Notes under the pieces: model-generated
Told to the model about the DNA's origin: nothing
Databases searched by the model: none
Seen by the model: the letters and a program-made list of their open reading frames with translations, nothing else
Assembly (NCBI RefSeq): GCF_030253575.1
Contig: NC_080567.1
Span: forward strand, 36,237,501-36,301,500
From: Rhododendron vialii
Taxonomy: Eukaryota; Streptophyta; Magnoliopsida; Ericales; Ericaceae
Direction: 5' to 3'
DNA: 64,000 nucleotides
Position numbers and translations under genes: made by a program
Part shown: in pieces, positions 19,709 through 56,213 of the stretch
How positions within the stretch are numbered: position 1 is the first letter of the stretch
Layout: every line of letters starts with the position of its first letter

Positions 19709-20196
19709 GTAAAGAAGTAAAATCACACACACAGGACTTAGTGAGCATTGCACTTTTATCCCATAGGACTTGATGGGCTATGGAATCCAATATTAGGACC
19801 GGCCCAGAATTAACTCAATATAAGGTATAAGGTTGCGTACTCGAATTAAGCCAAATATTTCGCCATCGAAAGATTTGTCCAGTCATTAATTTCAGGCTCC
19901 AGAATTAGGCGAAGTATGCGCTTTGCGCATACTGATTTGTATATCCAGTTATAGAGAAAATCAGAAACTACTGTTGACATTCCGGTAACCCAAGATCTCA
20001 GGAGAAACGTAATTTACCCTTTTATTCTAATACATTTGCAAGTTGGATCTCCTGCATACAGATTACAGAGTACTCCTATATCACAACAACTTAAAGGACT
20101 TCCCTTCTGCACGAAGCATTGCATACTCATTGCAGAAAACAAGAATTAAGCTGAACAACTTATTCTCTTACTGTCTGAAAAAGGGATACAAATCCT

Positions 20197-22776
20197 TTAA
20201 TAAGATGATTCCTCCGTGATCTTGAAATGACTAATTTGGATGTTCTCAACACCAAGCTTCTTGAAATTACTGCGCCTTCTGTTAGCAAAGAACTTCCCCC
20301 AGTTGTATGCCCTGTACTTGGCAGGGTTTTGCTCTGTTATCAGCTCCTCTAAGGGCTCCACCATCACATTATGGTCTGGATTCAAGAAGAATGGCATTGA
20401 GAATCTTTCCTTCTCTGAGTTCACCATTACCCTGTGCTCGACACTCTCGTATCTGTCGTTGCTCCATACCTAATTCATCACAGACATGTTTAGCTCATGC
20501 TAATTGTGCTAATTTTGGTAATGAGTTAGCATTTGTTTGCCATAAATTGGCATGCACGTACTTTCGTTCGTTTTAAGTCTTTTTTTTAAAAGTAAAAGTT
20601 CTCCAGGAGATGAAACGGAAAAAGTAAGAAATAAGTTCCAAAGCGAAAGAAAAGTTCACTAAAGACAAAACAATTAAAAACAAATAGAGTTCGTTCAACA
20701 TTTTTGTGATTTTTACGGTTTCTCTTATTGAGACGCATCGAAAAATTTCATATGTTTTGACCAGACAAAGTATTGGTGATGTGCACTTCTCATGCCATTC
20801 CGGAGCCTTTGTGTATTGCAAACTGCCCATTTCATTAGGCTCGTTGGGGGGTTGTTTATGAACAAAACACGTTTTTTTTGTAATTAACTCTCAAAATCAT
20901 ACTAATAGTTATTATTCTTTTTTTTCCCCGAAAATTTCATGTGTTTTGTCTCTCTTTCTCCCCCGGCCTTTTACCATAAACAACACCAATAAGCCGAACA
21001 GTCATTCTTGAAGTTATAGTTCAAGAAATGGGTACCTGAATGATGTCGCCAACATTCACAATGTAAGCATGGGGAGTGGGTCTGACCTGAACCCACTCCC
21101 CATCCGTTTTCCTCTTCACTTGGAGTCCTCCCACATCATCTTGTGCAAGAATGGTTAAGGCTCCACCGTCCTTGTGACGGCCAACACCCAAAGCTAGGTT
21201 AGGAATTGGACAAGATGGGTAGTGATTTAGCCTGAAAAAGCTGGTATGGTTGTTGAAGAATCCACTTAACCGGTTTGCTGGCAAGCCTAAGCTGAGGGAG
21301 ATGAGTTCCAGCAGTTTGTAAGCCAGTTTCTCCATTTCCTTTGCATATTCTTCATATGCCACTCTGGGTCAAGACAATTTGAAAGTAAGGTCACCTAGCT
21401 CAACTCTGAAAGATGCATCAGCAATTCGTATCTTTAATGGCTTGCACTTTTTGAGACTCTGAGAGTTATCCTCCCCGTATGTTTGGTAGGATTGACAAAC
21501 GAACCAAGCTGTTCGAGCTCGTATTTGCTTTTTAAAAGCTTGTTGAAGATTGGGTTATTACTAAACAAAATCAAGTTTGAACATTTTCCCGAGTTCCCCT
21601 CCCTGTAGGTTACGTTTGATTTGGTTGATAAACGAACAAAGCTGCGTTTGAGCTTGTATTCGCTTATTAAAAGGTCATTCAAGATCGGTTTGTTGCTAAA
21701 CAAATCAAGTTTGAACACTTATTTAAGCTCATTAAGTTATCAAACAAAGCTCGAACAAGCAATTACTAGGCTCATTCAGCCAATGATGTATAAGTAATGC
21801 AACCTACTTGAGATCTGCTCGATTAAAGCTCGTTTGAGATCAACCCATCTCATAAACAAGCTAAGTTTTGACATAATTTTGAAACTAGCTCATTGAGTTT
21901 TCAAACTACACGGCTCATTTATCAGCCCTACCTTGATACCTTCCCGTTCCCTCTACCAAAAAATGGTCTCCAATCAGGCTGACATAGGTGGGAGGGGTTT
22001 CCAACAAGACAGAGAAAAGGGAGACGGGTCCTCTGCCACAAATCAGCTCATCAGGTTTGAATTTGTTGTTGCTTGAGTCCGTATCGAGCATGGAACATTT
22101 ATACTTTGTGTCATTTTCCATGGCTACCCTATTCAGAGTCAGTCTATTAATGCAAATTGTGTTAATGCACATTATTAACTTACACATGCTAATTGCCGAT
22201 CAAAAAAAACTTACACAAGCTAATTTTTGATGTCATAGTTTCTGGTGACAAATGACAATTAAGCATTTTTTCCTCTATTGAGTCATTGTTTCCCCCTTTG
22301 TTATGCTGGAATGAGAAATCTTACCTCAATTCAGAAGGGTACTCAGGCCACCGATTAACCAACTCCCTGAGTCCATTATCGGCAGCCTCAGGTGAAGCCG
22401 GTATCACAGTCGGGTTCTTCACCGCCAGATCAAACACCTCTTTCCAGTCCCTGACATTCTTGGTCAGCTCAGTGTCATAGTAACCCAGTGGATTCAACTC
22501 ATCCCTCCTCACCTTCAGCTTCTCCTCCGTCGCCTGTGCAAAGAACTTTCTTGACGCCAACTCAAGTTTTTCTCTATTTTCCAAGGGCACCCCGTGGTTG
22601 ATAACTTGAAAAAAACCCCAGTTCTTGCATGCATCCCCAATCTCCTCTACCAGAGTTTCAATAGAATTTGAGTTTGAAATTGAGAGGTTGATCAGTGGTA
22701 TCCCTTCAGCTTCAGTAGTGGTTAGTTTAGGCCTGTGTTCAACTGCTTGAATGAAAGCTTCATCTACCTCTCCCAT
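20197..22776 (-). CDS. 2-oxoglutarate/Fe(II) dioxygenase, copy 1
   Basis: Three exons, 22776-22325, 21363-21036 and 20469-20197, encode 350 aa. Phases are AG|A at junction 1 and CAG|GTA at junction 2. The N-terminal DIOX_N domain starts MGEVDEAFIQAVEHRPK and contains CKNWGFFQVINHGVP. The C-terminal jelly-roll carries the Fe ligands H214, D216 (GRHKDGG) and H272 (VEHRV), and the 2OG-binding R282-x-S284. RLNHYP (N197, Y199) is also intact. This is a soluble DOXC-class oxygenase of the flavonol synthase/SRG1-like group. From memory it is closest to Arabidopsis At3g19000/At3g19010, whose substrate I cannot state. It is nearly identical to copy 2. Its intron 1 contains an AT-rich repeat. The gene looks functional. 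Confidence 0.9.
21440..21930. repeat. Repeat sequence in intron 1 of copy 1
   Basis: The intron holds two tandem, diverged units of roughly 140 bp sharing GATAAACGAAC/GACAAACGAAC, GAGCTTGTATTCGCTT/GAGCTCGTATTTGCTT and AAATCAAGTTTGAACA. A related stretch rich in AGCTCATT and CTCGTTTGAGATC follows. The same structure lies in intron 1 of copy 2 (33080-33520), but not in copies 3-6. Confidence 0.65.

Positions 22777-23998: not shown

Positions 23999-24002
<4 letters not shown>

Positions 24003-24067
<65 letters not shown>
24003..24067. repeat. (CT)n microsatellite, unit 1
   Basis: A long pure CT tract. Equivalent tracts lie at the same relative place in the other units (35490-35505, 42764-42800 and 50171-50222), so it was part of the duplicated segment. 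Confidence 0.95.
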
Positions 24068-26160: not shown

Positions 26161-26394
26161 TTACGTAGAGATTGTTGAATAAATCAAAGGCATCTAGAAA
26201 AAAATGCTACTGTATGCATACATGGAGGAAGCCAAAGCCAAAAAGTCTAGGGATCCACTCAATTCAAGCCTCAAAATTCTCTACAAAAATCGTCAACTGT
26301 TGCATTTTAATGGGTGCAACCAAGAACAATGAAAGCTAGTATACAAAATCAAACAATGGAAGATTAGAAGAGACCTGTCTGTCACTATTGCAAC

Positions 26395-27140
26395 GAGACC
26401 GAACCCATCAATTCCTTCCTTCCTTCCATAGCTTTCTCTGATGAACGAACCACCATATTTTCTCTCTCCCCCGCCTCCCTTTCCCTCGGAGGAGCGAATT
26501 TGTATTCCGTAGTGAAGTGGGTATGATCAGGTGTGGCCAAGTCTATTTTCAGAAAAATAAATTCAAAAAATCATCTCCGATTATGTATGAATCGATATCC
26601 GATTATCGTGATCTTAGACAAAGTTTATCTTCTCGACAATCTCTACAACTCCAACAGTTTCGATCAAGAAATAATCCCTGCACGAGTTTGCAATTTTACC
26701 AATTAGACTTCGTAAGTCCTGGAATGGGATCTTTAAAGAGACGCGTCGTCGTTTTGATGAAGTGAGTTTTTATCAGTTGTGGCATAATCTATTTTTACAA
26801 AAATAAATCCACAAAAATCATCTCCGATTATGTACTGATTGACATCTGAGGAACATGATCTTCTTCGAGGTTTAATTTTTTGTTAATTGATACCAACTGA
26901 ACATTTTCGATCAGGAAATAAACCCAGAACGAGTTTGAAATTTACCAATTACATGTCTTGCAGGACTTCTCAATTTGAAGATGCGAAGTATGAACGAAAT
27001 TCGACGACGTCGTCTTCATGGACCTCCACCGTTTGAAGAGGCGAGGTCTGAAGAAAACCCGATCGACGTCCTTTCAGTCACCGGGCGACTGTCGCCCCAA
27101 TGGTGAGGAAAATCGTCTCTAACAGTTCGTCGTCCCCATT

Positions 27141-27175
<35 letters not shown>

Positions 27176-27560
27176 CTTTCTCCCTCTATGTATGCATATT
27201 TTATCTCATTACATCTTCGGTCACAAACGATTGTTAATTCTCTGCGAATTGATTCTGGCCTTTCAACATTTCAGGAATGCAAAATCTCAATTTTTATCCG
27301 AATTGTACGCGATTCAATTTAGGCTATGGATTTCATCCAACTCGATCTTTTGGATTATTTGTTTTTTTGGCTATTCTTGTCTTATCACCAAAACTTTCAC
27401 TATTCATTTCTTTAGATGTACTTTTATGGATTCTCTCATAACAGAGCGCTTTGGTTTTTCTTATCAGGAGAAAATCTGCTTGCCAATTTGAGCTGTGTGA
27501 ATTGAGATGGTTTTAGCTGTCAGGTTAAAAATTGTATGCCTGGTGTACATTGTAGATCGT
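26395..27560. repeat. Dispersed block A of the duplication unit
   Basis: First of four related blocks (A 26395-27560, B 31021-31890, C 38318-39210, D 44730-45690). Each contains two diverged tandem units of about 240 bp sharing TCTATTTT, ATAAAT, AATCATCTCCGATTATGTA, CGATCA(A/G)GAAATAA and a TTTACCAATTA stretch. After these come a GACGACGTCGT-containing segment, a CT microsatellite (27138-27172) and a T-rich 3' part. Short open frames exist in each block but differ in length. Its function is unknown; it travels with the dioxygenase unit. Confidence 0.7.
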
Positions 27561-27785
27561 TAGAGTAAACGTAACATTGATATTTTTTGGGCTTAGTTTC
27601 GTATTTATTAAAAAAAATTGAGTTTTGATCTTTATTTTTCCGATTTCACTTGTCAAGACAAACCTATAATATACTGTATATAAAAAAAATTGGCGCATAA
27701 CTAAGAGTTTTGAAAGAAAAATGAATAAGACAAAAATAAGCAAGTGGCTTATTTATACCAAATGAAGCCTTATATTGGTACGCTA

Positions 27786-28001
27786 TCATTTTAAATGATT
27801 CTGACTTGGCGCCTTGAAATTGCAGAGTACACCTAGATGATAAACCTGCTGCCAAATGTGCCTAGAGTACGAGCAGAGAAAGAAGATGTGAAGTATATAT
27901 TTTGTTTCTTGATGGCAGAAGGAGCAAAGAGCTAATGAAGATGGAATAACTCCCCATTTCCTAAGCTTATCTTTAGTTCTCAGCTTCTTTTCTGTTGCCA
28001 T
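27786..28001 (-). mobile_element. LINE remnant (zinc-binding RT region)
   Basis: The minus-strand frame reads LRTKDKLRKWGVIPSSLALC then SFCHQETKYILHIFFLCSYS and RHIWQQV. This matches the pattern of the zf-RVT domain found near the C-terminus of plant LINE reverse-transcriptase proteins (K-D-x-L-x-K-W-G, C-x-x-C, H-x-F-F-x-C-x-x-S-x-x-x-W). Only this piece is present, and it is a small fragment in the foreign-debris region between units 1 and 2. Confidence 0.65.
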
Positions 28002-28595
28002 CAGTAAGATAAAGCTGTGCCCAAACTCTATCGTTGCTTATATTTTTGGCTGAAATCAGGAATGCTTGAAAACGTGTCTATTAGTTAGCATGTAGATAGT
28101 TTAAATTTAGTTGGCTAGATATATATTTTTATGATTACTCATGAACTCACGACTTTCATGGTAGGACTCCCATATTCGAATCATGTTGAGTTGGAAGAGG
28201 GGCTGGTTTGGCCAGGAAAGCATAAGAAGTCTGGTGTAAATAAGTTTCCTCAAACAACTCATCCCAACAGTTGTGTTTGAGATATGATTCTTTCAGTGGA
28301 TTCGATGATTAAGCCTTGGTTTTTGTTGCCCCATTTCAGTATGGTCTTTGTAAGCCTCTCACAGGCCTTGTCCTATGCTCCTATTTTACTTGGGTTGCTG
28401 TCCCTTCTACTCGCCAACTTATAGAAAACTTTTGTAAGAAGATCACTGTTGTTTGTCATTTAGACAGTAGAAGCATCTGATTTGTTTTTGGGAAAATTTT
28501 ACAAAGTGTTTTTTATGCTTTAGCTTTTTGTACTAAGATTGGTATTTTTACTGATGTTTCCTAAGTCCACCCTGTTTGCAATTTTGCTGTTGTAG

Positions 28596-28936
28596 AGGCA
28601 GTTGCTGCCCCAGATTCTGATGCGGAGTTTCCCTTGGCAGTTGCTGCCCCAGATTCTGATGTGGAGTTTCCCTTGACAGCAGAAAATGTGGAGGTTGTGT
28701 TGGATGAAATTCGACCATATCTCAATTGCTGATGGTTTTAATGTCTACACGAAATCGATGGCGATTTTATGAGGTTGAAGCTGCAAGGAGCATGAGACTC
28801 CTGTCCAAGTTGGGTAACGAGAATGAAGATGGGAATCGAGCATTGTTTAATGGAAATTTTTCCTGAAGTAGTTGCAGTGGAACTTAAAGCAGACAAGGTG
28901 ACTGGCCTTGAGCTGAATGAAGAATACATAGAGAAG
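28596..28936 (+). pseudogene. NFU (NifU-like scaffold) exon relic
   Basis: An exon-like segment between an acceptor-like GTAG (28592-28595) and a donor GTAATAAT (28937) encodes the start of the NifU domain of plastid NFU proteins: TAENVEVVLDEIRPYL, a degenerate HEIDGDFMRLKLQGA, MKMGIEHCLMEIFPEVVAVE, then VTGLELNEEYIEK. NFU proteins carry Fe-S clusters on a C-x-x-C motif. Here that region has a stop followed by DSCPS in place of a CGSCPS-type sequence, and an earlier stop follows EIRPYL. A 39-bp tandem copy (VAAPDSD repeat, 28598-28675) precedes the domain. No neighbouring NFU exons were found. It is a dead fragment, probably carried in by duplication or transposition. Confidence 0.75.
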
Positions 28937-29869
28937 GTAATAATGCATCTCCTTTTGTTACACTGTTAAAGCTTTTAAAGCACTAAGTGTGGTTTTAACA
29001 TGTTTTTGAACCAGTTTATCATTTTCGAATTACCATTTTAGAAATCATGCTTTCTGTCCAGATTCATAGGGGTATCAGGATGCGGATCTGTATTGCTCAT
29101 ATGACCATGTATTGGTCTTGGTCGATATAAAAGTAAGACAGTAAATAGTATCAGCTGATGTACTGAAATATCGATATTGCAAGTCCAAAATCCTTACATG
29201 CCAGTTTGTTGGCCGATATGCTACTTTATTTATGTGGGCTTTAATGAATGATCATTCCATTTCTTTCCAAAATCATTCTAGCATACAAAACACAACCTCA
29301 GAGTGCAAGTGCCTTTCACTAGGCATGTGGTGTAAGATAAGTCTGGCTTGATTATCTTGTGGAAGTGAAAGCATCTTCTTGTTTCATAAACAGATACTAT
29401 GATTAGGAATGGTAACATGTAACTAGTCTACTAATACGTCTAGATGTAATTCACAAGCAATGTCTATGCTGGAAAACACTTGAATAGGTCATTGCCACTG
29501 TTGCTGTCTGCTTCCGGACACATATGAAGAACTGGATGCTTAACATAGGGATAGAGCAGAGAAAATTATACTACGAATGGAAGCCATGAAAGCCATTGGC
29601 AAGCACAGACGACTCACAAAATATCTTAGACCCAGTTCCAGAGTTTCTAGCATCAAGGAGAGGCTGGAAAGAAGGCTGCAAAACGCTTTACAATCTCTTT
29701 CCTCAAAATCTCTAATTAAGCCTTCCTGTTTCCAGAACTAACACTGAACATCAGAAAATAAATGCACAGTTATTAATTGGAATATGTGTTAGTGTACGGA
29801 AAATGATGATGGCTGCACCAAGAGCAAATGCTGGTAGGGAAAAATATACCCGGGCGGTGTTTTTTCAAT

Positions 29870-30600
29870 AGTTTAGAACTTCGTAGAGATGATCAGTTGC
29901 AGAGACAAATTACACTCTTTTTTCTGGTAAATGTCACATTTTATAACCAACCAACTCAAAAAACAAAGTATAAACCCACAATACAAGTACCTATACATAG
30001 AAAACAGAACCTCACAAGCAGCAAAACTAGGGGACAGCAGGCCCAAGAACTCCTTGATGTATTCCATTGGCTACATAGCCGAATTGCTTCCAAGTACAGA
30101 CTCTAAGTCTAATTTTATCATCAATTCTAGCTAACACATCATCAGACCTTCTAGGACTACCACCAAAAACACTAGTAGCCCTCTCAATCCAGAGGTGATA
30201 GACCCCAGCAGCCAGAGCCAACTTAACAGCAGAGACCTAAAGTTTTTTCCTCTGCAGAAGCCAATAGCCTGATTAATTTCCATGTCCGACGCCTCATCCT
30301 CCTTTGAATCTGAAATCGTGCCTCCCAAATACTGTTGGAGAAGCTACACTCAAAAAACAGGTGTTGCAAAGTCTCATGGGACACAAAACACAAGCAGGCT
30401 CAACCTCCATACCCCATCTTCTAAGCCTAAGACAAAATACTTTTGATTGGTATTTCCCACGATAAAACAAGACATGATTTCAAATTTCAACTAAACATAC
30501 ACTATTAATCACAACCTCCCTCAGAAAAGAGGCATGATTGATCTAAGTTAGTCAGGGATATTGACATGGCTATATATATCAGCTCCTTTTGTGCCTTACT
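29870..30600 (-). mobile_element. LINE 3'-end remnant
   Basis: The minus strand holds another zf-RVT tail in broken frames. C-V-L-C and H-L-F-F-E-C-type pieces lie near 30330-30420, followed by LALAAGVYHLWIERATSVFGG and IRLRVCTWKQFGYV (30027-30240), a typical plant LINE ORF2 C-terminus. An AT-rich 3' tail to about 29870 follows. There are several frame breaks, and no 5' part was seen. Confidence 0.55.
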
Positions 30601-30620
30601 ATAATCGGGAACCTTAGGCC

Positions 30621-30899
30621 TCAATTTTTAGGCTCGCCGTGGCTGTGATAGATTATAGCATTTGGCCTTGTATCGAAATCCTTTCTGAAGTGGTCCATGT
30701 TTACACTACCAGAAGATGAGTGCCATTTTTTGATCTTCTCTTTGGATGGAGATGACGGATCTAGATGGAGTACCAGTTGTTGAATTGACTTGGGCATTGG
30801 CTCGCCGTTCATTATGCTATTCCAGTAGTCTGTTGGATCTTTTCTTGCATCACAGAAGCTGGAAAACTGACCACACGCAAAAGAAGAAGGAGAATTCAC
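30621..30899 (-). pseudogene. Organ-specific protein family fragment
   Basis: The minus-strand frame contains DARKDPTDYWNSIMNGEPMP, and later FRKDFDTRPNAIIYHSHGEP before a stop. These are the signature segments of the plant organ-specific protein family (S2/P4-type, Pfam Organ_specific): an ARKDPGEYW-type start just after the signal peptide, and repeated FxKDFDxRPNxxxYH units. Here only one such unit remains, and the sequence upstream of Asp-Ala-Arg lacks an in-frame signal peptide with Met (stops occur upstream). It is therefore a truncated copy. A 35-bp piece of it (GGCATTGGCTCGCC on plus) recurs at about 30985-31020, exactly where block B begins. Confidence 0.65.
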
Positions 30900-31020
30900 A
30901 GGAGTGTTTGATTTTCTTATTGAAGTAACATTCAGGAACTAGAATGAGATGCTTGATAAACTCTAAACAAGAAGGATTTAAATATGTATGAATTGACTCA
31001 GGCATTGGCTCGCCTTTCAT

Positions 31021-31890
31021 CATGTATGAATCGATATCCGATCAACGTGATCTTGGACAAAGTTTATCTTCTTGACAATTTCTACAACTCCAACAGTCTC
31101 GATCAAGAAATAATCACTGCACGAGTTGCAATTTTACCAATTAGACTTCGTAAGTCCTGGAATGGGATCTTTAAAGAGACGCGTCGTTGTTTTGATGAAG
31201 TGGGTTTTTATCAAGTGTGGCCTAATCTATTTTTACAAAAATAAATCCACAAAAATCGTCTCTGATTATGTAGTGATTGACATCCGAGGAACTTGATCTT
31301 CATTGAGGTTTAAGTTTTTGTCAATTTCTACCAACTGAACATTTTCGATCAGGAAATAAACCTAGAACGAGTTTGCAATTTACCAATTACATGTCTTGCA
31401 GGACTTCTCAATGTGAAGATGCGAAGTCTGAACGAAATTCGACGACTTCGTTTTCATGGACCTCCACTCCAGTCGTTTCAGTCACCCCAATGGTGAGAAA
31501 GATCGTCTCCAACAGTTCGTCGTCCCCATTTACTCACTCTGAGCGCGCGCGCTCTCTCTCTCTCTCAGCTCTTTCCCTCTCTGTATGCATATTTTATCTC
31601 ACTGATTCTAGCCTGTCACATTCAGGTATCTAAAATCTCAATTTTTATCCGCATTGTACATTTGGACATTTTTTTTGTGTGCGGCTATTCTTGTCTTTAT
31701 CACCAAAACTTTCACTTTTCATTTCTTTAGTTGCACTTCTATGCACTCTCTCATAACAGAGCGCTTTGGTTTTTCTTATCACGAGAAAAACTACTACTTG
31801 CCAATTTGAGCCACCTTGTGAATTGAGATGGTTTTTAACTTTTTGGCTAAAAATTGTATGCCTAAATCGTATACCTGGTGTACATTGTAA
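31021..31890. repeat. Dispersed block B
   Basis: Second copy of the block. It starts abruptly at ATGTATGAATCGATATCCG, so its first 180 bp or so relative to block A are missing. The left junction abuts the small repeat of the organ-specific fragment. A CT/GC tract (GAGCGCGCGCGCTCTCTC) lies at 31547-31567. Its right part matches block A up to TATGCCTGGTGTACATTG. Confidence 0.7.
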
Positions 31891-38182: not shown

Positions 38183-38317
38183 TAGGGATCCACTCAATTC
38201 AAGCCTCAAAATTCTCTACAAAAATCGTCAACTGTTGCATTTTAATGGGTGCAACCAAGAACAATGAAAGCTAGGAGTATACAAAATCAAACAATGGAAG
38301 ATTAGAAGAGACCTGTC

Positions 38318-39062: not shown

Positions 39063-39101
<39 letters not shown>

Positions 39102-39210
39102 CTCTCTCCCTCCGTGCATATGCATATTTTATCTCACAACATCTTTATCACAAACGACCGTCAATTCTCTACAAATTGATTCTGGTATGTGACATTTCAC
39201 GTATACAAAA
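38318..39210. repeat. Dispersed block C
   Basis: Third copy of the block, with both 240-bp tandem units. The second unit contains an open frame with FTKINPQKSSAIM and LIEHFRSNKPRTTLQF, aligned with QKNKFKKSSPIM and QLQQFRSRNNPCTSLQF in unit 1 of block A. Two CT tracts lie at about 39029-39047 and 39067-39099. Confidence 0.7.
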
Positions 39211-39309
39211 TCTCAATTTTTTGACTTTTTTGATTTCCCCAATAATAATACATATAAAAAAATTGGCGCATAACTAAACGATTTGATAGGAAAATGAATA
39301 AAGAAAAAA

Positions 39310-43499: not shown

Positions 43500-44350
43500 T
43501 ACAAACTATTCAAATACCGAGATACTAATGATCCAAAAAAGGAATAGAATCTAAATCCTAACCGAAACTTCTTATCAACAACTCCCAAAGAAAACAGATA
43601 TATTGAAGGAATAGTTGAACAGAAATATGACATGACAAAATTGAAACAAAACGTACATAGGTGAAACCAGTGGCGACTCTCAGAGGTTTCGGGTGTCCAT
43701 TGAGGCATCTGAGCCAGCTCCCGCAGCAAATCAATGTTCTCAAAAATCCCATATTTGGGTATCTAACAAAAGCAAAGAATGTATTAACACTACAAATGTG
43801 ACAATCATGGACAACCTATACGGCACTAAGTCGCGCTTAAGGAGGACAATGACTTACTGCCAAGGATAAATGGCAGTCTTCAAATTCAACTGCATCTCAT
43901 GAACAAGAACTAGATCTTCATTCCCCTACGAAAGATAATTGAAACAATGATATTGCAATTTTAATCATTGCATGTAGACTGTTTCAATTCCCCCACACTC
44001 AACTTGCCCCAAATGTATTCCGCCTTTCTCCAATTGTTCCCTCCGGATAACCATAACTTATTTGGCTTGGAGCCTCATAAAGAGGACATCTTATATGTCT
44101 GGTACCATTAAGAAGAGAGGAGTGCTATGTACCCCGAAAGAGTACCCAGAAATTACCCCGAATTTGAAAATCGATGGTCCAGATTGACTTAAATCTGGGC
44201 CATCGATTTTCAAATTCGGGGTAATTTCTGGGTACTCTTTCGGGGTACATAGAATTTCCCTTAAGAAGAGTACATCTAGGTCAAGAAAACATCTTTGAAT
44301 ATACAAAAATACGGACACGACCAGTTGACATGAAATTCCAAAGATAGATG
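43500..44350 (-). other. Exon-like block of unknown origin, unit 3
   Basis: Third sister of the 25.7-kb block, interrupted by a MITE at 44118-44260. The 3' piece is better preserved here. After an acceptor-like TTAG (near 43764) the frame reads IPKYGIFENIDLLRELAQMP then QWTPETSESRH without the stop that unit 1 has at the same place. Another frame over the same bases is also open (MGFLRTLICCGSWLRCLNGH), so the true frame is undecided. Confidence 0.3.
44118..44260. mobile_element. Mutator-like hairpin MITE, unit 3
   Basis: This is an almost perfect hairpin: CTATGTACCCCGAAAGAGTA on the left mirrors TACTCTTTCGGGGTACATAG on the right, with the loop near 44190. The flanks are a 10-bp direct repeat, TTAAGAAGAG (44108-44117 and 44261-44270). 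Unit 2 has the single-copy site (ATTAAGAAGAGTACATTTAGG near 37020). The target length of 9-10 bp fits Mutator-type elements. Confidence 0.8.
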
Positions 44351-44729
44351 ACAGAATATAGGGAAAATAGAATTCATGTCGCCGAACTCAATTGATTGGG
44401 ACTCAAGGCTCGGTTTGGTTTCGTTTTTGTTAGAAGACAGAATATGACTGCCTCCATCACCAAATGTTGGAGATGCACAAGAAACTCAGTAGTCCCAAAA
44501 GAAATGCAACAGACATCATCACAGTTAGGAAGGTATCATTGTCTGACGTAGAGATTTGTTGAAGAAATGAAAGGCATCAAGAAAAAAATGCCAAAAAGGC
44601 TAGGGATCCACTCAATTCAAGCCTCAAAATTCTCTACAAATCGTCAACTGTTGCCTATTAATGGGTGCAAGCAAGAACAATGAAAGCTAGTATGCAAAAT
44701 CAAACATTGGAAAATTAGAAGAGACCTGT

Positions 44730-45690
44730 CTATTACTATGGCAATGAGATCGATCCCATCAATTCCTTCCTTCCTTCCATAGCTTCCTCGGATGAACGAA
44801 CCACCGCATTTTCTCTCCCTCCCTTTCCCTCGGAGGAGCGAAATTGTATTCCGTAATGAAGTGGGTATGATCAAGTGTGGTCAAGTCTATTTTCAGAACA
44901 ATAAATTTTACAAAATCATCTCCGATTATATATCAATCGATATCCGATTAATTTGATCTTCCACAAAGTTTATAATCTTTACAAGCTCTACAACTCCAAC
45001 AGTCTCGATCAAGAAATAATCCCTGTCCGTGTTTGCAATTTTACGAAGTAGACTTCGTAGGTCCTTTAATGGGATCTTCGAATAGACCCGACGTCGTTTT
45101 GATGAAGTGGGTTTTATCAAGTGTGGCCTAATCTATTTTTACAAAAATAAATCCACAAAAATCGTGTCCGATTATGTATTGATTGACATCCGAGGAACAT
45201 GATCTTCATCGAGATTTAAGATTTTGTCAATTTCTACCAACTGAACATTTTCGATCAGAAAATAAACCCAGAACGAGTTTTCAATTTACCAATTACATGT
45301 CTTGTAGGACTTCTCAATTTGAAGATGCGAAGTCTGAATGAAATTCTACGACGCCGTTTTGATGGACCTCCACTGTTTGAAGAGGCGAGCTCTCAACAAA
45401 ACCCGGTCGCCGTCGTTTCAGTCCCCCCCAAGGTGAGGAAGATCATCTGTAACAGGTCGTCGTCCCCATTTGCGCTTCTCTCTCTCTCCCTGAGCTCTCT
45501 CCCTCTGTGTATGCATATTTTATCTCACTACATCTTCGGTCACAAACGACTGTCAATTTTCTGTGAATTGATTCTGGCCTGTCACATTTCAGGTATGCAA
45601 AATCTCAATTTTTATCCGCATTGTACGCGATTCAAATTAGGCTATGGATTTCATCATTTTATGAACAAAACTTGCATGTTGCGGTGTAAA
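44730..45690. repeat. Dispersed block D
   Basis: Fourth copy of the block, immediately upstream of the copy 4 unit in plus coordinates. It has the same two 240-bp tandem units followed by a plus-strand frame beginning MKMRSLNEILRRRFDGPPLF (45319 on), which parallels MRSMNEIRRRRLHGPPPFEE in block A. The CT tract here is short. Confidence 0.7.
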
Positions 45691-46483
45691 TCCATGTTTG
45701 TGGTTGTGAATATGTTTGACTGAAACAAAGAATGCCTGAAAATGCATAGACTAGTTACTAGTATGTAGTTAGTATGTAAATTTAGTTGGCTAGTTCATAG
45801 TTTAAATTTAGTTTCTTGAAAATTTAGTTGGCTAGTTCATAGATTTGAGGATCGATTGGAGGCATAACAAGATTGGGTTGGGGCCGAGGACATGGGTAAA
45901 GAGAAGGGGAGAGATGAGGTTTAAAGACGGAAGAGAGAAAATTAAGCTTGGTTAACTTTTTTATGACTTTTATTTAATGGGCAGGGTTAATGTGAAGGAC
46001 AAATACACAAAAAACCAATTTCTGCTAACGTTGTTTGGTTACGCAGAAACAAAAAAACCCAATTTTTGCTAATGCAAAAAACGCATTATGTAACATACTG
46101 CCCCAGATAGAGCTCAATGAAGAAAAACGGATTCATGTAGCCCACCCTAATTGACTGGTACTTAAGGCTTTGTTGGTTTGTTTGTTTGGTTGAAAAATCC
46201 AACATTCTATTTTTTTTTTTGATAAGTAATTGACAAATGTAACATTCAAAGTCAAAGTCAATTTAGAAACTTTATATTTGGAGTTCAAGAACCTCGTCAG
46301 AGTTCAATGTAATTTGCCCTTTTTTACTCTTATACAATTCTAGGATGGATGTCCTTGATGATGAGTATTTCATAAGAACTCTTCCCTTCTACACAAAGCA
46401 CTGTTATTGTACAAAACTGGAAGCTGAACAACTTATTCTTGTGTTTGTACGAGGATCACAAATCCTTTAGGATGGTTCCTCCT

Positions 46484-48036
46484 TTATTTGAAATGATTAA
46501 GTTGGACGTTGTCAACATCATGCTTCTTGAAATTACTTGGCTTTTTGGTTGCAAAGAGCCTCCCCCGGTTGTATGCTCTGTACTTGGCCGGCTTCTGCTC
46601 TGTTATCAGCTCCTCTAGCGACTCTACCGTGAGATTATGGTCTGGATTGACGAAGAATGGCATCGAAAATCTTTCCTTCTCGGAGTTCACCATTACGCTG
46701 TGCTCAACACTCTTGTACCTGTCATTGCTCCATACCTATTCAACAATTTCCCATGTCCACATATGTTCAGCTCATACTGGTGTGGTAATTTAGGCGGTGA
46801 GTTTAATGTTAGTCAAGAAATGGTACCTGAATGGTGTCACCAACATTCACAATATAAGCATGGGGAGTGGGTTTGATGTGAATCCACTCCCCATCAGCTT
46901 TCCTCTTTACTTGCAGTCCTCCAACATTGTCTTGTGCAAGGATAGTTAAGGCTCCAGCATCCTTGTGTTGGCTAATACCCAAAGCTAGGTGAGGGATTGG
47001 ACAAGATGGATAGTGAACGAGCTTGGTGAAGCTGTTATGATCATTGAAGAAACCACTTAATCAGTTTGCTTTCAAGCCTAAGCTCAGTGAGATGAGTTCC
47101 AGCAACTTGTGAGCCAATTTCTCCATTTCCTCGGCATATTCTTCACGTGCCGCCCTGGTCCAGACAATTTAGTCAACTCACCTCCCTCAATCTTTAATAG
47201 AACAATAATTTGTTGCACTAGTATTTTGGATCACCATTTACCGATCTTTTCCCGGAGTTTCCCCTCCCCATTCCCAATCATATCTTTTCCCGGGTCCTCT
47301 GCCACTACTAGATCAATTAGCTCATCAGGTTTGAATTTGCGGTTGCTCCATTTCAAGCACGATATACCTTATGTTTTGTTGCATTTTTCGTGGTCGCCCT
47401 TTTTGAGTTGGTCTAATATTGCAACCAGTGTCAATGTGCGCAAAACTACACATGCTAATTTTTGATGCTATAGTTTCTTGTGATAGATCACAATTAATCA
47501 TGCCATTTATTGATGCCATAGTTTCTTCTTATGCTCAAATAGGATTAAAATCTCGAATGTTACCTCAATTCAGAAGGGCACTCAGGCCACCGATTAACCA
47601 CCTCCTTGAGTCCATTGTCAACAGCCTCATGTGAAGCCGGTATCACAGTCGGGTTCTTCACCATTAGATCAAGCACCTCTTTCCAGCCCGTAACATTCTT
47701 GGTAAAAAAACTATCATAATAACCCGCTGGATTCACCTCATCCCCCCTAACCTTCAGCTTCTCCTCTGTTGACTGTGCAAAGAACTTTCTTGATGCCATC
47801 TCGAGTTTTTCTCTCTTTTCCAATGGCACCCCGTGGTTGATAACTTGGAAAGCCCCCCAGTTCTTGCAGGCATCCCTGATCTCTTCTACTAGAGTTTCAA
47901 TGGAACTAGGGTTAGAAGGCAAATCATGAGAGTTAAAAACGGAAAGGTTGATCAATGGGATGCCTTCAGCTTCAGTGATGGCTAGTTTAGGCCTGTGTTC
48001 AACTGCTTGAATGAAAGCTTTATCTACCTCTCCCAT
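46484..48036 (-). pseudogene. 2-oxoglutarate/Fe(II) dioxygenase, copy 4 (nonsense)
   Basis: Exons 48036-47564, 47154-46827 and 46735-46484 keep the array structure and all splice sites. The middle exon has TGA in place of the Arg codon in KANRLSG (47063-47061, codon 189), upstream of the Fe-binding HKD motif, so no active enzyme could be made. Other drift fits relaxed constraint: RLNHYP has become KLVHYP, YNWGKFF has become YNRGRLF, and the C-terminus stops at NHFK. Exon 1 is intact with the same 7-residue insertion as copies 3 and 5. The Fe ligands themselves (QHKDAG, VEHRV) remain readable. I call it a pseudogene; the stop is a CGA-to-TGA type change. Confidence 0.88.
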
Positions 48037-49328
48037 GGCTGAGAATACTTTTGGCTAACCCTAGGAAAAGGTTGTTTTCTAGGTGTAAAATGAGGCTAGT
48101 GGTGACATAGTTATATCATGGGAGTGTGAGGAAATATTTATGTTGAACCTAGAAATTTTTTGTGACCATGTGTGATGAGGTTGCTAACGTAGATAGGTTC
48201 GTTAGGATTCCTCTTTGGAAGTTTTGCTTGTCTTTGTCATGACTGGGAAATTGTTTGTTTGCTTTCTTTTAAGAATTAATATGAAACAGGACAAAACAAG
48301 GCAAGTAGAGTCCAAAACTAAAGTTACATATATATTTGGATTTTGGAATACATAATAGCATATGTCAGCTGGTAACATAAATGGTGGTTTTGCCTTTCTA
48401 TATTTTCTTGATTACACTCCACATCAATGTGTGAATATGCACCCCTCTTTTGTTATTATTATTCTTCTAAAACGTGCACCTCTCTTTTAGTTCGTCTCGT
48501 TGGGCAATCTATTCAGAGGTGATGATAATACTACGACCTAGTGTTCGGTTCCTTTTTTTTTTTTTTTCTATCTGTGTGTTCGGTTCCTGTTAAAACACAT
48601 TATTTGGATTGAGAGACAGAATGTCTATACAAAACCAAATGACGTGGAACTAACAACTGTTTATGTGGCATTATGCTTTTGTGAAAGTCGGAATGATTTC
48701 AAAAGCCAAAAATGAGACCCATATATAAAGGAACAATGACCATGGCAATCAAAGAAACTTGTTGAAAGTTGAAACTGAATGAGAATATCCGTCTCAAATC
48801 AATGCGGCTAATGTTTGCCATATTTTACCAAACTTAAATTTAAAGAATGAAACCAAAGAGACATGGTTCATAAATCACCGTTGTACTTTCCATTGGCTTT
48901 CAATCCATATCTGTTAATGCGTTTACATTTTATTAGGCTGGCGTAGTGCTTTCAGTAATATTCTTGTTGGCCTGGCTTTTGTGGTGATATGCCCTCTTTT
49001 CTTTTTCAGGGTGAGTAATTTGATGATATGCCCTTGATCTTTCGTTATAAGCATGAGTGAATTTTGATCTGCCATTATCTCTTTTCTTAAAATGTAGACC
49101 GACTTATACAGGAAAATGTCAAATTTCAGGTTGAAGAAATCCATCTGTCTGAAAATTTCTCAAACGTCAGTAGTTGGTTTGATACCACTTGTACATTCTG
49201 TTACATGAATTTCATTCAAGTTTCCGAAATCTCGACCCATGCTTCCAAAAGTTTCACACACTATGGATTGTTGAAGGAACGCTAGAACAGCCCCTTAGTG
49301 CTTCTACATTATATCCAATGCATTACTT

Positions 49329-49776
49329 TGATTTCCTGAAATGATAAATTTGGATGTTTTCCACATGAAGCTTCATGAAATTACTAAGGTTTCTGGCACT
49401 GACAAACTTTCCCCAGTTGAATGCCTTGTACTTGGCAGGGTTTTGTTCATGCACGAGTTCCGCCACAGGCTCCACCATGGTTGTCTAGACGTTGTAGATA
49501 ATTGAGAATTCGGACTTTTTTTTGTTCGATTTGCTGCCATAACGAAATTGAGTATCCTATTAATCCAGGATTTCATTAGAATTCCCCAAAAGAGTCTGGA
49601 TCCCATAACAGAATTAAGTATTGTGTTTAGTAGTTTATAAAAAAATGCTTTTATCCACATATTTGTATTTGTAATGTGCCGGGTTGAAGAAGAATGGAAT
49701 GGAAAACCTTTCCCTCTCAGAGTTCACCGTCACCCTGTGCTCCACACTCTTATACTACTTGTCATTGCTCCATTCC
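49329..49776 (-). pseudogene. Dioxygenase exon-3 relic split by an insertion
   Basis: Two pieces match exon 3 of copy 6 rather than copies 1-5: 49329-49480 (frame with NPAKYKAFNWGKF-like bases) and about 49676-49776 (ERFSIPFFFNP-like). Between them lies about 195 bp that is not in any other copy. No exon 1 or 2 follows on the plus-coordinate side; the sequence instead passes into upstream-type DNA like that at 23.7 and 35.2 kb. The region 48.1-49.8 kb thus mirrors 52.9-54.6 kb, so this is the truncated twin of copy 6, broken when the array rearranged. Confidence 0.75.
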
Positions 49777-50169
49777 TGTACAGATGTTATAGAATTGGTA
49801 GAGACACTGTTAAATCAACTGATTTTTGGGACTGAAAAAATCTTGGAGGTCCCGTGCGTATTTAATGGATATTCGCATCTAACTAATCCTAATCTCACGC
49901 TTTCCATGCATATCTGTTTCAAAGCTTCTAACCGACTGTATATGACGTTTACACTGTATGACAAATTCCGAGAGGAGTTGGTTCCAAGTGTAGCCAATGG
50001 TAGGACATGGTTTTGGACTTACGTTTAGTCTGGATTGTGTCGAAACGTGTATTTACAAGGCATTCGCTTCTTGTCTTGTAAGAGACTATTCCCTATCCTT
50101 AGATCCAACATGGCCTTATTGAGGTGGGAAGGGGTTGTTTGCTGGCTAAGAGGCATTTCTCACTTCAGG

Positions 50170-50227: not shown

Positions 50228-51262
50228 GACAACAACCTTTTAAATCCTCTTCTTATGCAGAAACATACACTTAAATTTAACAACTAGTAATCAACAATAT
50301 CTACTTATCTTCGAACATGGACTGAACAGCAATTGGAGCGAGAAAAAGGTCGGTAAAGCATTAAAATGTGTTCTTTGGGTTTGTAAATCTGGGATTTCTT
50401 AACCTTTTACTCCTTATCTGCCATACAAGATTGGCCTTTAGGTGTTATGCTCTGCTAATACTATTCTGTGTACGCCATTAGTTAAGTTTTTGCTGATTTT
50501 TCATCTTTAGAAGTGCTACTGAGCAGTGCTTTTACAGCACATTAAGTACTACTTTTTTTCTTTTTCCTGAACAAAAAAAGTAGTTTAAGTATGCAATGAC
50601 TGAATTTACGTAAGGAATCAGTAAATTGTTTGCTTTGTTGTGGGATAGATTTGGTGATGGATCAGAGTCTCCGACGAAAACCCCCCGACAGATTTGGGGA
50701 TGGATCAGAGTCATAACAAGATTAGGTTGGATTTGAGGACATGGGTAACGGGAAGGGGAGAGACGAGCTTATTTAGACGGAAGAGAGAAAAGTAAGCATG
50801 GTTAACCTTTAATGACTTTTGTTTAATAGGGGGGGTTAATATGAAGGACAAAAAACGCAAAAAGCCAATTTCCGCTAACATTGTTTGCTAACGCAAAAAG
50901 CCAATTTCTGCTAATGCAAAAACGCATTACAAAACACGATGCCCTTGCAGAGCTCAATGGAAAAAGCAGATTCATGTAGAGATCCCAATTGATTGGTCTT
51001 TAAGGCTCTGTTTGGTTTGGTTGTTTGGTCGAAAAATCTAACCTTCAGGTCAATGTCATTGCAGAAACTTATATTTGAAGTTCAGGTACCTCACTGAGAG
51101 AGTTCAATGTAATTTACCCTTTTATTCTTGTAGTTCTAGGTTGGGTCTCCTAGACAATGTGTATATCATTCAAACTCTTCCCTTCTACACAAGGCATTGT
51201 TAGTGTAGTAAACTGGAAGCTGAACAATTTATTATAGTGTTCGTAAAAGGATTGCAAGTACT

Positions 51263-52849
51263 TTAAGACGATTCCTCTTTTTTCTTGAAATGATAAATTT
51301 GGATGTTCTCAACATCGAGCTTCTTGAAATTACTGCGCTTTTTGGTAGCAAAGAACTTCCCCCAGTTGTATGCCTGGTACTTGACCTGGTCTTGCTCTGT
51401 TATCAGCTCCTCTAGAGGCTCTACCATGACATTACAGTCTGGATTGAAGAAGAAGGGTATCGAGAATCTTTCCTTCTCAGAGTTCACCATTACCCTGTGC
51501 TCAACACTCTCATACCTGTCATTGCTCCATACCTGTTCAACAATTTCCCATGTACGCATATGTTCAGCTCCTACTTGTGTGGTAATTTAGGTGGTGATCG
51601 AGTTTATTTTGTAGTTCAAGAAATGGCACCTGAATGATGTCACCAACATTAACAATATAAGCCTGGGGAGTGGGTTTGACGCGAATCCACTCTCCATCCA
51701 TTTTCCTCTTTACTTGGAGTCCTCCAACATCATCTTGTGCTAGGATTGTTAAGGCTCCAGCATCCTTGTGTCGTGTAACGCCCAAAGCTAGGTGAGGGAT
51801 CGGACAAGGTGGATAGTGATTGAGCCTGGTGAAGCTGGTATGGTCGTTGAAGAAGACACTTAATCGGTTTGCTTTCAAGCCTAAGCTCAGTGAGATGAGT
51901 TCCAACAACTTGTGAGCCAATTTCTCCATTTCCTCGGCATATTCTTCAAATGCCTCCCTGGTAGTCAAGACAATTTAGTCAGCTGACTCAGCTCACCTCC
52001 CTCAATCTTTAATAGAATAATTTGTTGCACTAGTATTTTGGATCATCATTTACCGATCTTTTCCCGGAGTTTCCCCTCCCCTCCCCAATCCCAATCATAT
52101 CTATTCCCGGGTACTCTGCCACTAATAGATCAATTAGCTCATCAGGTTTGAATTTGCGGTTGCTCCATTTCAAGCATGATATACCTTGTGTTTTGTTGCA
52201 TTTTTCATGGTTGTCCTATTTGAGTTAGTCAATATTGCAATCTGTGTCAATGTGCACAAAACTACACATGCTAATTTTTGATGCCATAGTTTCTTGTGAT
52301 AGGTCACAATTAATCATCTCATTTATTGATGCCATAGTTTCTTATGCTCAAATAGGATTAAAATCTCGACTGTTACCTCAATTCAGGAGGGTACTCAGGC
52401 CACCTATTAACCACCTCCTTGAGTCCATTGTCACCAGCCTCATGTGAAGCCGGTATAACAGTTGGGTTCTTCACCGTCATATCAAACACCTCTTTCCAGT
52501 CCCTTACATTCTTGGTCACCTCACTATCATAATAACCCTGTGGATTCACCTCATCCCTCCTGACCTTCAGCTTCTCCTCTGTTGACTGTGCAAAGAACTT
52601 TTTTGATGCCAACTCGAGTTTTTCTCTCTTTTCCAATGGCACCCCGTGGTTGATAACTTGGAAAAAACCCCAGTTCTTACAGGCATCCCCTATCTCTTCT
52701 GCTAGAGTTTCAATGGAACTAGGGTCAGAGGGCAAATCATGAGAGTTAAAAACGGAGAGGTTGATCAACGGGATGCCTTCAGCTTCAGTGATGGCTAGTT
52801 TAGGCCTGTGTTCAACTGCTTGAATGAAAGATTGATCTACCTCTCCCAT
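51263..52849 (-). CDS. 2-oxoglutarate/Fe(II) dioxygenase, copy 5
   Basis: Exons 52849-52377, 51957-51630 and 51532-51263 give 356 aa. Fe ligands H221, D223 (TRHKDAG) and H279, 2OG-binding R289-x-S291 and RLNHYP are all present. The middle-exon donor is GTGCC where the other copies have GTACC; it still has GT and should splice. The N-terminal region carries the insertion HDLPSDPS shared with copies 3 and 4. The C-terminus IYHFKKKEESS is close to both copy 1 (EESSY) and copy 6 (IYHFRKSE). Among the 3-4-5 subgroup this is the only undamaged member. It has the same predicted role as copy 1; the substrate is not known from sequence. Confidence 0.9.
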
Positions 52850-53187
52850 GGCTCAAGAATACTTTTGGCTAACCCTAGGAAAGAGGCTGTTTTCTAGGTG
52901 CAAAATGAGGCTAGTGGTTACACAGTTATATCATGTGAGTGTGTGGGAAGATTTATATTGAACCTGGACATATTTTGTGACCATGTGTGATGAGGTTGCT
53001 AAGGTAGGTTGGTTTCTTAGGATTCCTCGAAGTTTTGCTTGTCTGTCTTGACTGGGAAATTTTTTGTTTGCTTTCGTTTAAAAAAAATGAAATAGGACCA
53101 AACAAGGCAAAAAAGAGTCTAAAGTTAAAGTTACATATATGTTTAGAATGCGTAATAGCATATGTCAGCTGGTCATATTATATAGTA

Positions 53188-53520
53188 TTGGAATTGGATC
53201 TACCTTGTGAGAGATGACAAACCCATGAGAGAGACAACCGACTGTGAGAGCCCAAGTGGCTAGGGTTTTCCCATGTGCCATGTTTTGTTTGAAGTCATCC
53301 ATGACAAATCTGGATGCCTCCCTCCCCTATATATTGTATTGAATGCTCAGAGAGTGAGTGTGTGGCTGACGGCTGTACAATGTAGTCTGAGAGGGTGAGG
53401 TGGAGTGAGGGGGAGCTGGAGTTGCTCCCCGGAGAGTTTTTCGTCTCTGTATGTTTGTGAATATATAAGGGAGTTTTTTCTAGAATTGATGTGTGTCTTT
53501 TGCAATTGGTGATCCATGGT
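53188..53520. mobile_element. Unclassified insertion upstream of copy 5
   Basis: About 330 bp here (from GGAATTGGATCTACC to TTGGTGATCCATGG) has no match in the equivalent DNA upstream of copies 2 and 4, which reads straight through (AGTATTGTTC, AATGGTGG). It contains two promoter-like AT boxes (CCTATATATTG, GAATATATAAG). It may be an LTR fragment or TRIM, but the ends are not clear. Confidence 0.35.
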
Positions 53521-54318
53521 AGTTGTGACTTTCTTTATTTTCTGATTACCTACTCCACATCAATTTGTGAATAAGCACCTCTCTTTTAGTTCGTTTTGTT
53601 TGGCGATCTGATTGAGAGTTGATGATAATACTACGGCTTAATGTTTGGTTCCTGTTAAAACCCATTATTTAGATTGAGAGACGGGAATGTCTATACAAAA
53701 CCAAACGACATGGAACTAACAACTGTTCATGTGGGCATTATGCTTCTGTGAAAGTCAGAATGATTTCAGAAGCCAAGAATGAGACTTACATGTAAAGGAA
53801 CAACAAACTCGGCAATCAAAGAAACTTGTTGAAAGTTGAAACTCACTAAATGAGAATATCTGTCTCTAATTGATGTGGCTAATGTTGCCAGATATTGCCA
53901 AACTTACATTCAAAAGAAGGAAACCAAATAGATATGGTTCATAAATCACCGTTGTACTTTCATTGGCTTTCAATCCTTATGTGCTAATGCATTGCATTTT
54001 ATTAGGTTGGCCTAGTGCTTTCATTAATATCCTTGTTGGCCTGCCAATATCGATTTTCATGGAATTTAGACCATCTTGTCAAGACAAATGTTGAATTTCA
54101 AGTTGAAGAAATCCATCTTTCTGAAAATTTCTCACACTTCAGTTGGTTAAGTAGAAAGACGCTATTACCAATTGTACATTTCATTACAGGAATATCATTC
54201 GAGTTTCTCCAAAATGTCTGATACAAACTTACCCATGCTTCCAAAAGTTTCACACACTATGGATTGTCGAAGAAAAGCTAGAACAGCCCCTTATTGCTTC
54301 TACATTATATCCAATGCA

Positions 54319-56024
54319 TTACTCTGATTTCCTGAAATGATAAATTTGGATGTTTTCCACATGAAGCTTCTTGAAATTACTGAGGTTTCTGGCACTGACA
54401 AACTTTCCCCAGTTGAATGCCTTGTACTTGGCAGGGTTTTCTTCATTCACAAGTTCCGCCACTGGCTCCAGCACAGTGTAATGTGCTGGGTTGAAGAAGA
54501 ATGGAATGGAAAACCTATCCCTCTCAGAGTTCACTGTCACCCTGTGCTCCACACTCTCATATTTGTCATTGCTCCATACCTGTACAGATGTAGAATTGGT
54601 GAAGACAAGTGAAGTAAGTAGATGCAACAGATATGCCTACTGGTTGTTTCAGGGAAAGTGATACTACTACCTAATCACCCTTTAATTTTGACGAATTTCC
54701 TATGATTAGCTTTTCGTACTAGTTGGTGACAAAGTGTATGGAAGTTCAGTTTTCATAATCAGTGCACCAGAATCTCGCTTTACTACAAGCTCTAAAAATG
54801 TAGGAGTAGGTAACCCGACTTTTTTCTGTAGAGTCTGATTCGTATGGCAATGCGAGAGCGAGATTCTTGTGCACTGATTATGATGCCAGAAGCAGCCTTA
54901 ACCCAACTTTTTATTGTGTGTGTGTGCAGAGTCTGATTCTTCTGATATAAACTCGCGCCACAAAGGTTAGAGCTGGTTAAACTGACCATTGTGATTTTTT
55001 GCACTCTTTGTAACTTAGAAGATGTAATGTTCTGTAAAGGTCATCCCTTCAAGGTAGTTTACCTGAATGATATCACCCACATTCACAATGTAGGCATCTG
55101 GGGTGGGCTTAACACGGATCCATTCTCCATCTGTTTTTCGCTTTACTTCCAGGCCTCCGACATCGTCTTGAGCGAGGACAGTCAAGCCACCGGCATCCTT
55201 GTGGTGACCGACTCCAAGGGCTAGGTGAGGAATGGGGCAGCGCGGATAGTAGTTGAGGCGCAGAAAGCTGGTTTGGTCTTTGAAGAAATTGTTGAACCGA
55301 CTTTCAGGCAAACCTAAGCTCAGGGAGATGAGTTCTAACAACTTGTAAGACAGTTTTTCAGTTTCTCTAGTGTACTCTTCACATGCATCCCTGGTGGAAA
55401 ACAGGCTATGAGGTCACATAATTCATTTGCCAGTATCTATTTTTATGTACTATACATGCATCCCTGGTGGAAAACAGGCTATGAGGTCACATAATTCATT
55501 TGCCAGTATCTATTTTTATGTACTATACATCCACAGACACTCTTACGTGGTTACCTGAAGTTAGGAGGGAATTCAGGCCATTGATTGTGCAGCATCGTTA
55601 ATTCTTTGTCACCGGGTTCAGGAGAAGCCGGTATCACAGTCGGAACTTCGACGACAAAATCAAATACTTCTTTCCAGTCCCTCACGTTCTTGGTGTGCTC
55701 ACCGTCATAATAACCCATCGGATTCAGCTCATCTCTCCTCACCCTGCTCTTGTCTTCCATCGACTGACCAAAGAACTTCCTCGAAACAGATTCTATTTTC
55801 TCGCGACATTCCAGCGGAACTCCGTGGTTGATCACCTGGAAAAACCCCCACTTCTCGCAAGCGTCACCTATCTCGGCTACAAGGCTAGCGATGGCGTCTG
55901 AGTTAGAAGAGTTCAAAGCAGAGAGATCAATCAGTGGGATGCCTTCAGCTTCTAAAGTGCTGGTGGGTTTGGGCCTGTGTTCAGTGGATTGGATGAATGC
56001 TGATGAATCAACCACCTCCCCCAT
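54319..56024 (-). CDS. 2-oxoglutarate/Fe(II) dioxygenase, copy 6
   Basis: Exons 56024-55555, 55390-55063 and 54579-54319 give 352 aa. Key residues are intact: H220, D222 (HHKDAG), H278, R288-x-S290 and LRLNYYP. Met at 56024 (MGEVVDSSAFIQS) is chosen over upstream in-frame Mets because it aligns with all paralogues. It is the most divergent copy (RESRVRRDELNP-like region, DFVVEVPTV, EPVAELVNEENP) and the closest to PEX, so it may represent the ancestral locus. Its intron 1 contains an exact tandem repeat of about 70 bp (CATCCCTGGTGGAAAACAGG, at 55386 and 55458) that also duplicates the acceptor CCAGGG of exon 2. Intact; probably a distinct substrate or expression from copies 1-5. Confidence 0.92.
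55386..55530. repeat. Tandem repeat over the exon-2 acceptor of copy 6
   Basis: Two exact copies, about 72 bp apart, of CATCCCTGGTGGAAAACAGG followed by CTATGAGGTCACATAATTC and TTTTTATGTACTATACAT. The upstream copy (in gene sense) repeats the CCAG acceptor and the first bases of exon 2. Confidence 0.9.
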
Positions 56025-56213
56025 AGTTGAGAGTTGAGTTGCAGCCACATGTGTTGGGAGGGGGAGTACATATTTTTGGGCACATATATAAATTAGGAAG
56101 ATGTGGTAGGTATGTGATGTGACATTGAATCTGGACAGGTTTTTTAGAATCGGGGGGTTAGTAAAAAAGTCTGTGTGATTTGGAGCATGATGTGTTTTTG
56201 TTTTTTCCCTCAA

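Follow-up and report, generated by a model that had tools for sequence, protein, structure and literature searches.

Tandemly arranged 2-oxoglutarate/Fe(II) dioxygenases (2-ODDs) are said to act in the glucosinolate biosynthesis of Arabidopsis, where they reportedly go by the name AOP, a system that is likened by description, not by sequence, as tandem 2-ODDs in specialised metabolism, to the gene array of Rhododendron vialii analysed here. According to passages of its published description, the FLS/DAH halogenase locus of Menispermum likewise consists of tandem 2-ODDs, with functional members beside pseudogene intermediates (PMC12346261). The stretch considered in this work, referred to below as the window, comprises 64,000 nucleotides of R. 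vialii (contig NC_080567.1, positions 36,237,501–36,301,500; contig 11 of the genome search) and contains, at 20,197–56,024 and all on the minus strand, six three-exon copies of a 2-ODD gene together with one fragment (R) that retains exon 3. The locus is very probably a DOXC-type tandem array that has gained and lost members through unequal exchange (birth and death), in which an old member stands beside a second lineage of five genes, and in which one duplication gave rise to both a pseudogene and the fragment.

The copies are named A–F by rising coordinate and correspond to copies 1–6 of a preliminary description of the locus, R being its exon-3 piece. Four of them have open frames and canonical splice sites: A (20197–22776; exons 22776–22325, 21363–21036, and 20469–20197, separated by introns of 961 and 566 nt; 350 aa), B (32262–34436; exons 34436–33985, 32976–32649, and 32525–32262; 347 aa), E (51263–52849; exons 52849–52377, 51957–51630, and 51532–51263; 356 aa), and F (54319–56024; exons 56024–55555, 55390–55063, and 54579–54319; 352 aa), the last being the ancient member. 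Copy C (40436–42167; exons 42167–41695, 41123–40797, and 40705–40436) is a pseudogene whose exon 2 is one base short near 40835, resulting in a frameshift, and copy D (46484–48036; exons 48036–47564, 47154–46827, and 46735–46484) is a pseudogene with an in-frame TGA in exon 2 and an exon 3 that stops 6 codons ahead of the end of C. Fragment R (49335–49775) is an F-type exon 3 alone that carries an in-frame stop close to its beginning and is split by an insertion of ~190 nt. Exon 1 spans 452–473 nt and exon 3 252–273 nt, and exon 2 is 328 nt long in five of the six copies (327 nt in C). In all six the introns are of the GT..AG type and lie at the same codon positions (determined by script for A, B, E, and F, and by eye for C and D), intron 1 interrupting a codon after its second base and intron 2 falling between codons; the lengths of intron 2 are 566, 123, 91, 91, 97, and 483 nt in A to F, respectively. 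The gene models thus agree with the preliminary description in the number of copies, their frames, the lesions of copies 3 and 4, the intactness of copies 1, 2, 5, and 6, the 328-bp middle exon, and the conserved splice phases.

Single-exon tblastn searches with A detected six first-exon, six second-exon, and seven third-exon places, E being no higher than 1e-12 for the main pieces; within the six copies, the main match to each exon ranged from 1e-38 to 1e-100. Exon 2 of C was matched in two pieces (the second with E of 0.003) because of its frameshift, and R as two halves (2e-19 and 9e-13). Chance is excluded as the source of these matches. A genome search with F scored 115 of 387 candidates and returned 123 matches; all counts from it are accordingly lower bounds. 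Among the matches listed, those on contig 11 with more than 46% identity to F all lie within the window, giving no sign that the array continues beyond it. Outside the array, the same level is exceeded only on contig 5 at 9.888–9.952 Mb, where two open paralogues in four exons are accompanied by a partial copy on the other strand consisting of first- and second-exon pieces only (paralogues and partial copy: L029 4745–8076, L031 3736–5854, and L030 5609–3991). An extra intron interrupts the contig-5 genes within the region that is exon 1 in the array, which points to an intron gain or loss between the two groups. A–E are adjacent, share one orientation, and are more alike among themselves than they are to genes elsewhere; F shares their place and orientation, with a protein identity of 71% to A, 70% to E, and 64–65% to the contig-5 genes.

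All four open copies matched DIOX_N (PF14226, 94–105 bits) and 2OG-FeII_Oxy (PF03171, 109–123 bits) above the curated cut-offs. The HxD...H motif constitutes the iron site and RxS the co-substrate motif of these enzymes, and H-K-D, a distal EH, and R-F-S are present in all six aligned copies. Judged by these features, the array genes are assigned to the plant 2-oxoglutarate/Fe(II) dioxygenase superfamily, DOXC type, and each working copy is predicted to encode a soluble oxygenase with a His-Asp-His iron site, hydroxylating or desaturating a small metabolite with the use of 2-oxoglutarate and O2. We infer enzyme activity for the open copies and expression for A, E, and F. Among solved structures, the chain closest to F is At5g05600 (6lsv; 219 bits over F residues 13–326, an alignment that leaves out the last 26 residues of F), which we take to be jasmonate-induced oxygenase 2, followed by thebaine 6-O-demethylase (184 bits). 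At5g05600 resembles the array genes in the DIOX_N and 2OG-FeII_Oxy architecture, the HxD..H iron site, and the R-x-S motif, its H-S-D, EHR, and R-V-S falling at places matching those of F. The six array copies and the two contig-5 paralogues (hereafter, the eight Rhododendron genes) nevertheless stand apart from both solved enzymes in the tree; membership in the jasmonate-induced oxygenases (JOX) was rejected, as At5g05600 groups with thebaine 6-O-demethylase outside the eight, these two being the only outside enzymes in that tree. A halogenase active site of the DAH type was also rejected, because it needs the iron-site Asp to be replaced by Gly and H-K-D is kept in every copy. NCBIfam gave no match for either of the two copies searched (A and F). 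The N-terminal EHRP motif suggests the Arabidopsis pair At3g19000/At3g19010 as candidate closest relatives in that species. EC 1.14.11.23 denotes flavonol synthase. In two published lists, At3g19010 is placed under EC 1.14.11.23 in one and labelled FLS1 in the other, which is taken as annotation only, and no substrate test of it was found in passages of three papers, one of them on expression only. Among the papers listed by the literature searches, none links an array of such 2-ODDs in Rhododendron to any product, although this does not prove that there is none.

The members of the array had been regarded as a single series running from intact gene to relic. The synonymous divergences (Ks, Nei-Gojobori) instead reveal two lineages of very different age: Ks is 0.078 for A–B, 0.072 for C–D, 0.204 for C–E, 0.192 for D–E, and 0.37–0.43 between A/B and C/D/E, and reaches 1.37–1.68, at saturation, from F to A–E. 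Values from the contig-5 genes to A, E, and F (1.29–1.69) are saturated as well. A tree of the eight Rhododendron genes has the topology ((A,B),(E,(C,D))) and places F between A–E and contig 5; each of its five inner branches is starred. When At5g05600 and thebaine 6-O-demethylase were added as outgroups (ten sequences), the eight remained together at 100/100, and a grouping of D and E without C was rejected (P value of the approximately unbiased test, p-AU, 0.015). The eight also stayed together (100/99) in a tree of exons 2 and 3 with six other dioxygenases of the same genome, taken from eight that were read. Scattering of the copies among unrelated clades, which the preliminary description had named as refuting its reading, was therefore not seen against either the two characterised enzymes or the six own-genome dioxygenases. 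For comparison, two published reports give Rhododendron Ks means of 0.61–0.67 for the Ericales-wide Ad-beta duplication and 1.65–1.71 for gamma (PMC6907397), and a Ks peak of ~0.65 in R. simsii, dated to 78 Mya (PMC7572368). By their Ks, the splits within A–E are placed after the Ericaceae genome duplication, and F lies beyond reliable dating. Scaling to the dated R. simsii peak puts the A/B and C/D splits at ~9 My, that of E from C/D at ~24 My, and that of A/B from C/D/E at ~44–52 My, all of them rough, since they derive from a single gene and mixed estimators.

These relations suggest that an old member F came to stand beside a second lineage, which would have split into the ancestors of A/B and of C/D/E, then into E and the ancestor of C/D, and most recently into A and B and into C and D. 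One duplication probably took in an E-like gene and the adjoining 3′ part of F, and so gave D and the exon-3 fragment R. Unequal exchange is the presumed mechanism, and the exact order of C, D, and E is likewise presumptive. Repeats between the genes could have promoted such exchange: an intergenic block, designated X, recurs at 26248–27541, 31019–31863, 38183–39221, and 44601–45655 in the self-comparison and belongs to a dispersed repeat family with 53 genome matches, including these four, the best copies outside the array (80–83%) lying within ~0.5 Mb on the same contig (C11:36777836–36778879, C11:36754598–36755575, and C11:35930657–35931696). X-type repeats also flank the region at 27.5–31.0 kb between A and B. 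A lost gene there was considered and rejected, as tblastn of proteins A, E, and F against 27,400–31,100 revealed no dioxygenase exon (lowest E, 0.23), just short pieces of intergenic repeats. Separately, a 70-nt inverted repeat (93% complementary, with a 6-nt gap) is located at 44116–44261 between C and D, and is possibly a foldback element.

Several observations weigh against this history in its details. The intron 1 distance is smaller for D–E (0.062) than for C–D (0.098), as is that of the 3′ flank (0.274 vs 0.328) and, weakly, the 5′ flank (0.330 vs 0.363), the flank alignments being poor; around exon 1, C is 91.3% identical to E and 89.2% to D. Support in the ten-sequence tree is 91/100 for A–E and 89/96 for C+D+E, and the tree of exons 2 and 3 gives A–E at 82/72 and does not resolve the order of C, D, and E. 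The placement of F is weakly supported: F joins A–E at only 46/12 in the best tree, and the alternatives with F beside contig 5 (p-AU, 0.25) or outside both groups (p-AU, 0.42) are retained, so it does not follow that F founded the array. Exon 2, intron 2, and the synonymous sites, on the other hand, unite C with D, and local gene conversion, a likely reason for such conflicting signals, has probably blurred the history of the three copies.

Two alternatives concern the reality of the copies themselves. That one or two loci were misassembled into seven is exceedingly improbable. Even the closest copies differ (Ks, 0.07–0.08; 88–89% identity over aligned blocks including exons), with single 300-nt stretches up to 97% identical; intron 1 differs by 6–10% within the pairs A–B, C–D, C–E, and D–E, and over the whole array, copies at Ks of 0.07–1.7 have distinct introns and partly distinct intergenic DNA. 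The window is without any N, and the genome report describes an assembly built on HiFi and Hi-C data that has fewer than 10 gaps in each haplotype (PMC10338486). The divergence of the copies and the absence of N make a misassembly unlikely. The other alternative, implied by the preliminary description in its series from intact gene to relic, sees in R what is left of a seventh complete gene after decay in place. R indeed has a stop, an insertion, and neither exon 1 nor exon 2. However, self-comparison shows that the block containing D and R (45841–49806) is collinear, with gaps, to the block made up of E and of F exon 3 with the adjoining 3′ flank (50690–54607). The D–E part is 85% identical, and R and its 3′ flank follow the same order as exon 3 and the 3′ flank of F, with pieces 79–90% identical and the match ending ~28 nt into F intron 2; between R and E, no exon 1 or 2 match was found by tblastn at E up to 10. 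Since D, next to R, is matched to E in this order too, a single block duplication covers both. In-place decay is accordingly quite improbable, and R is read as a truncated F duplicate: one duplication with its breakpoint in F intron 2 would best explain both D and R. The insertion in R (49480–49668) consists of sequence found in pieces across the genome (36 matches including itself, covering different sub-intervals), as would be expected of a mobile element or organelle-derived DNA.

Selection on the copies was estimated with a branch codon model (GY94 with F3x4, fixed tree, lesions of C and D masked), in which a single ratio of non-synonymous to synonymous rates (ω) is 0.27 (log-likelihood, lnL, −4617.57). 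The pooled C and D tips have ω of 1.40 against a background of 0.22 (lnL, −4595.95; twice the log-likelihood difference, 2ΔlnL, 43.2, with one degree of freedom) and do not differ from 1 (lnL fixed at 1, −4596.62; 2ΔlnL, 1.3); as separate tips, C has ω of 1.0 and D of 1.8 (lnL, −4595.52), the test against 1 being that of the pooled tips. C and D are neutral, dead copies. With C and D kept separate, A and E are constrained: ω is 0.23 at the A tip, below 1 at 2ΔlnL of 6.1 (lnL fixed at 1, −4598.57), and 0.31 at the E tip (lnL, −4594.98), below 1 at 2ΔlnL of 10.3 (fixed at 1, −4600.11). F also looks constrained, with ω of 0.14 taken from the many-ratio fit alone (lnL, −4590.05). The B tip, with ω of 0.78 (lnL, −4593.15), is indistinguishable from 1 (−4593.22) and lies above the background at 2ΔlnL of 4.7 (p of ~0.03 before correction for the three open tips so tested); its branch is compatible with neutrality, and B looks relaxed. 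The preliminary description had listed A, B, E, and F as intact; as to open frames this holds, but B shows no detectable constraint, and an open reading frame is thus not equal to constraint.

These estimates bear on what the array may be for. On one account, most duplicates are neutral by-products and only F, perhaps with E, matters; B, C, and D evolving as though unconstrained and the presence of fragment R speak for it, but the constraint on the A and E tips speaks against it, and we consider it unlikely. Somewhat better placed, although still tentative, is the account in which the array is a lineage-specific specialised-metabolism locus with A/B, E, and F acting on different substrates. 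The expansion of A–E after the Ericaceae duplication, as dated by Ks, and the constraint on A and E agree with it, as does the new chemistry reported for a 2-ODD tandem locus elsewhere (PMC12346261). On the other side, Pfam searches of nine further open reading frames, out of 59 of at least 100 aa in the window, matched three and found no metabolic enzyme or other metabolic gene among the nine, a survey that intron-split genes could escape. A more specific version is distinctly improbable. In it, an Ericaceae-specific pathway would draw on A, E, and F for oxidations that either follow one another or are alternatives, and C and D, which were broken by different lesions after they recently diverged, would be the trace of a third activity lost in this lineage. 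A lineage-specific metabolite from the array is possible.

The three open reading frames with a Pfam match, all on the minus strand, lie in and around the array. A fragment of an organ-specific-protein gene (PF10950, 38.6 bits) is located at 30621–30938 between A and B. Beyond the low-coordinate end of the array, 6538–8481 encodes a PPR protein that ends in a LAGLIDADG_2 domain (149 bits) and that we take to be OTP51-like. Adjoining F, an open frame of 926 aa at 57109–59889 contains leucine-rich repeats and a long proline-rich repeat tail, and is presumably of the LRR-extensin kind.

The 50-base sequence given in the genome report as the probable centromere repeat (PMC10338486) has 4,756 exact forward and 1,111 exact reverse occurrences in the genome searched, and its reversed control none in either direction, in agreement with R. 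vialii as the source. Within the R. vialii genome, 156 PF03171 matches were obtained, counted per exon and not per gene; among the matches listed, at least 22 fall at C4:36.435–36.743 Mb, at least 11 at C13:28.97–29.06 Mb, and at least nine in the present array. The contig-4 cluster (C4:36435788–36743491) is thus larger, extending on both strands over ~0.31 Mb. The contig-4 and contig-13 clusters are at most 42% identical to F among the matches listed. In R. simsii, a published analysis counts 4,746 tandem duplicates, with higher Ka/Ks and smaller Ks in tandem and proximal pairs (PMC7572368). Set beside such families, the array offers a well-marked birth-and-death series in which reading-frame integrity can be separated from selective constraint: B would be annotated as intact and yet looks relaxed, and R, the supposed ‘relic’, probably never existed as a gene of its own. 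A second point is a small, apparently uncharacterised dioxygenase group in which A–E, F, and contig 5 have formed distinct lineages from around the time of the gamma duplication. To those who work on plant gene families, neither would come as a surprise. Loci at which tandem 2-ODDs lie beside pseudogenes are an established kind, and the array is an ordinary example of enzyme gene gain and loss. At the Menispermum locus, according to the same passages of its description, a new function has been shown together with a D-to-G switch at the iron site (PMC12346261), whereas the Rhododendron array keeps this Asp in all six copies.

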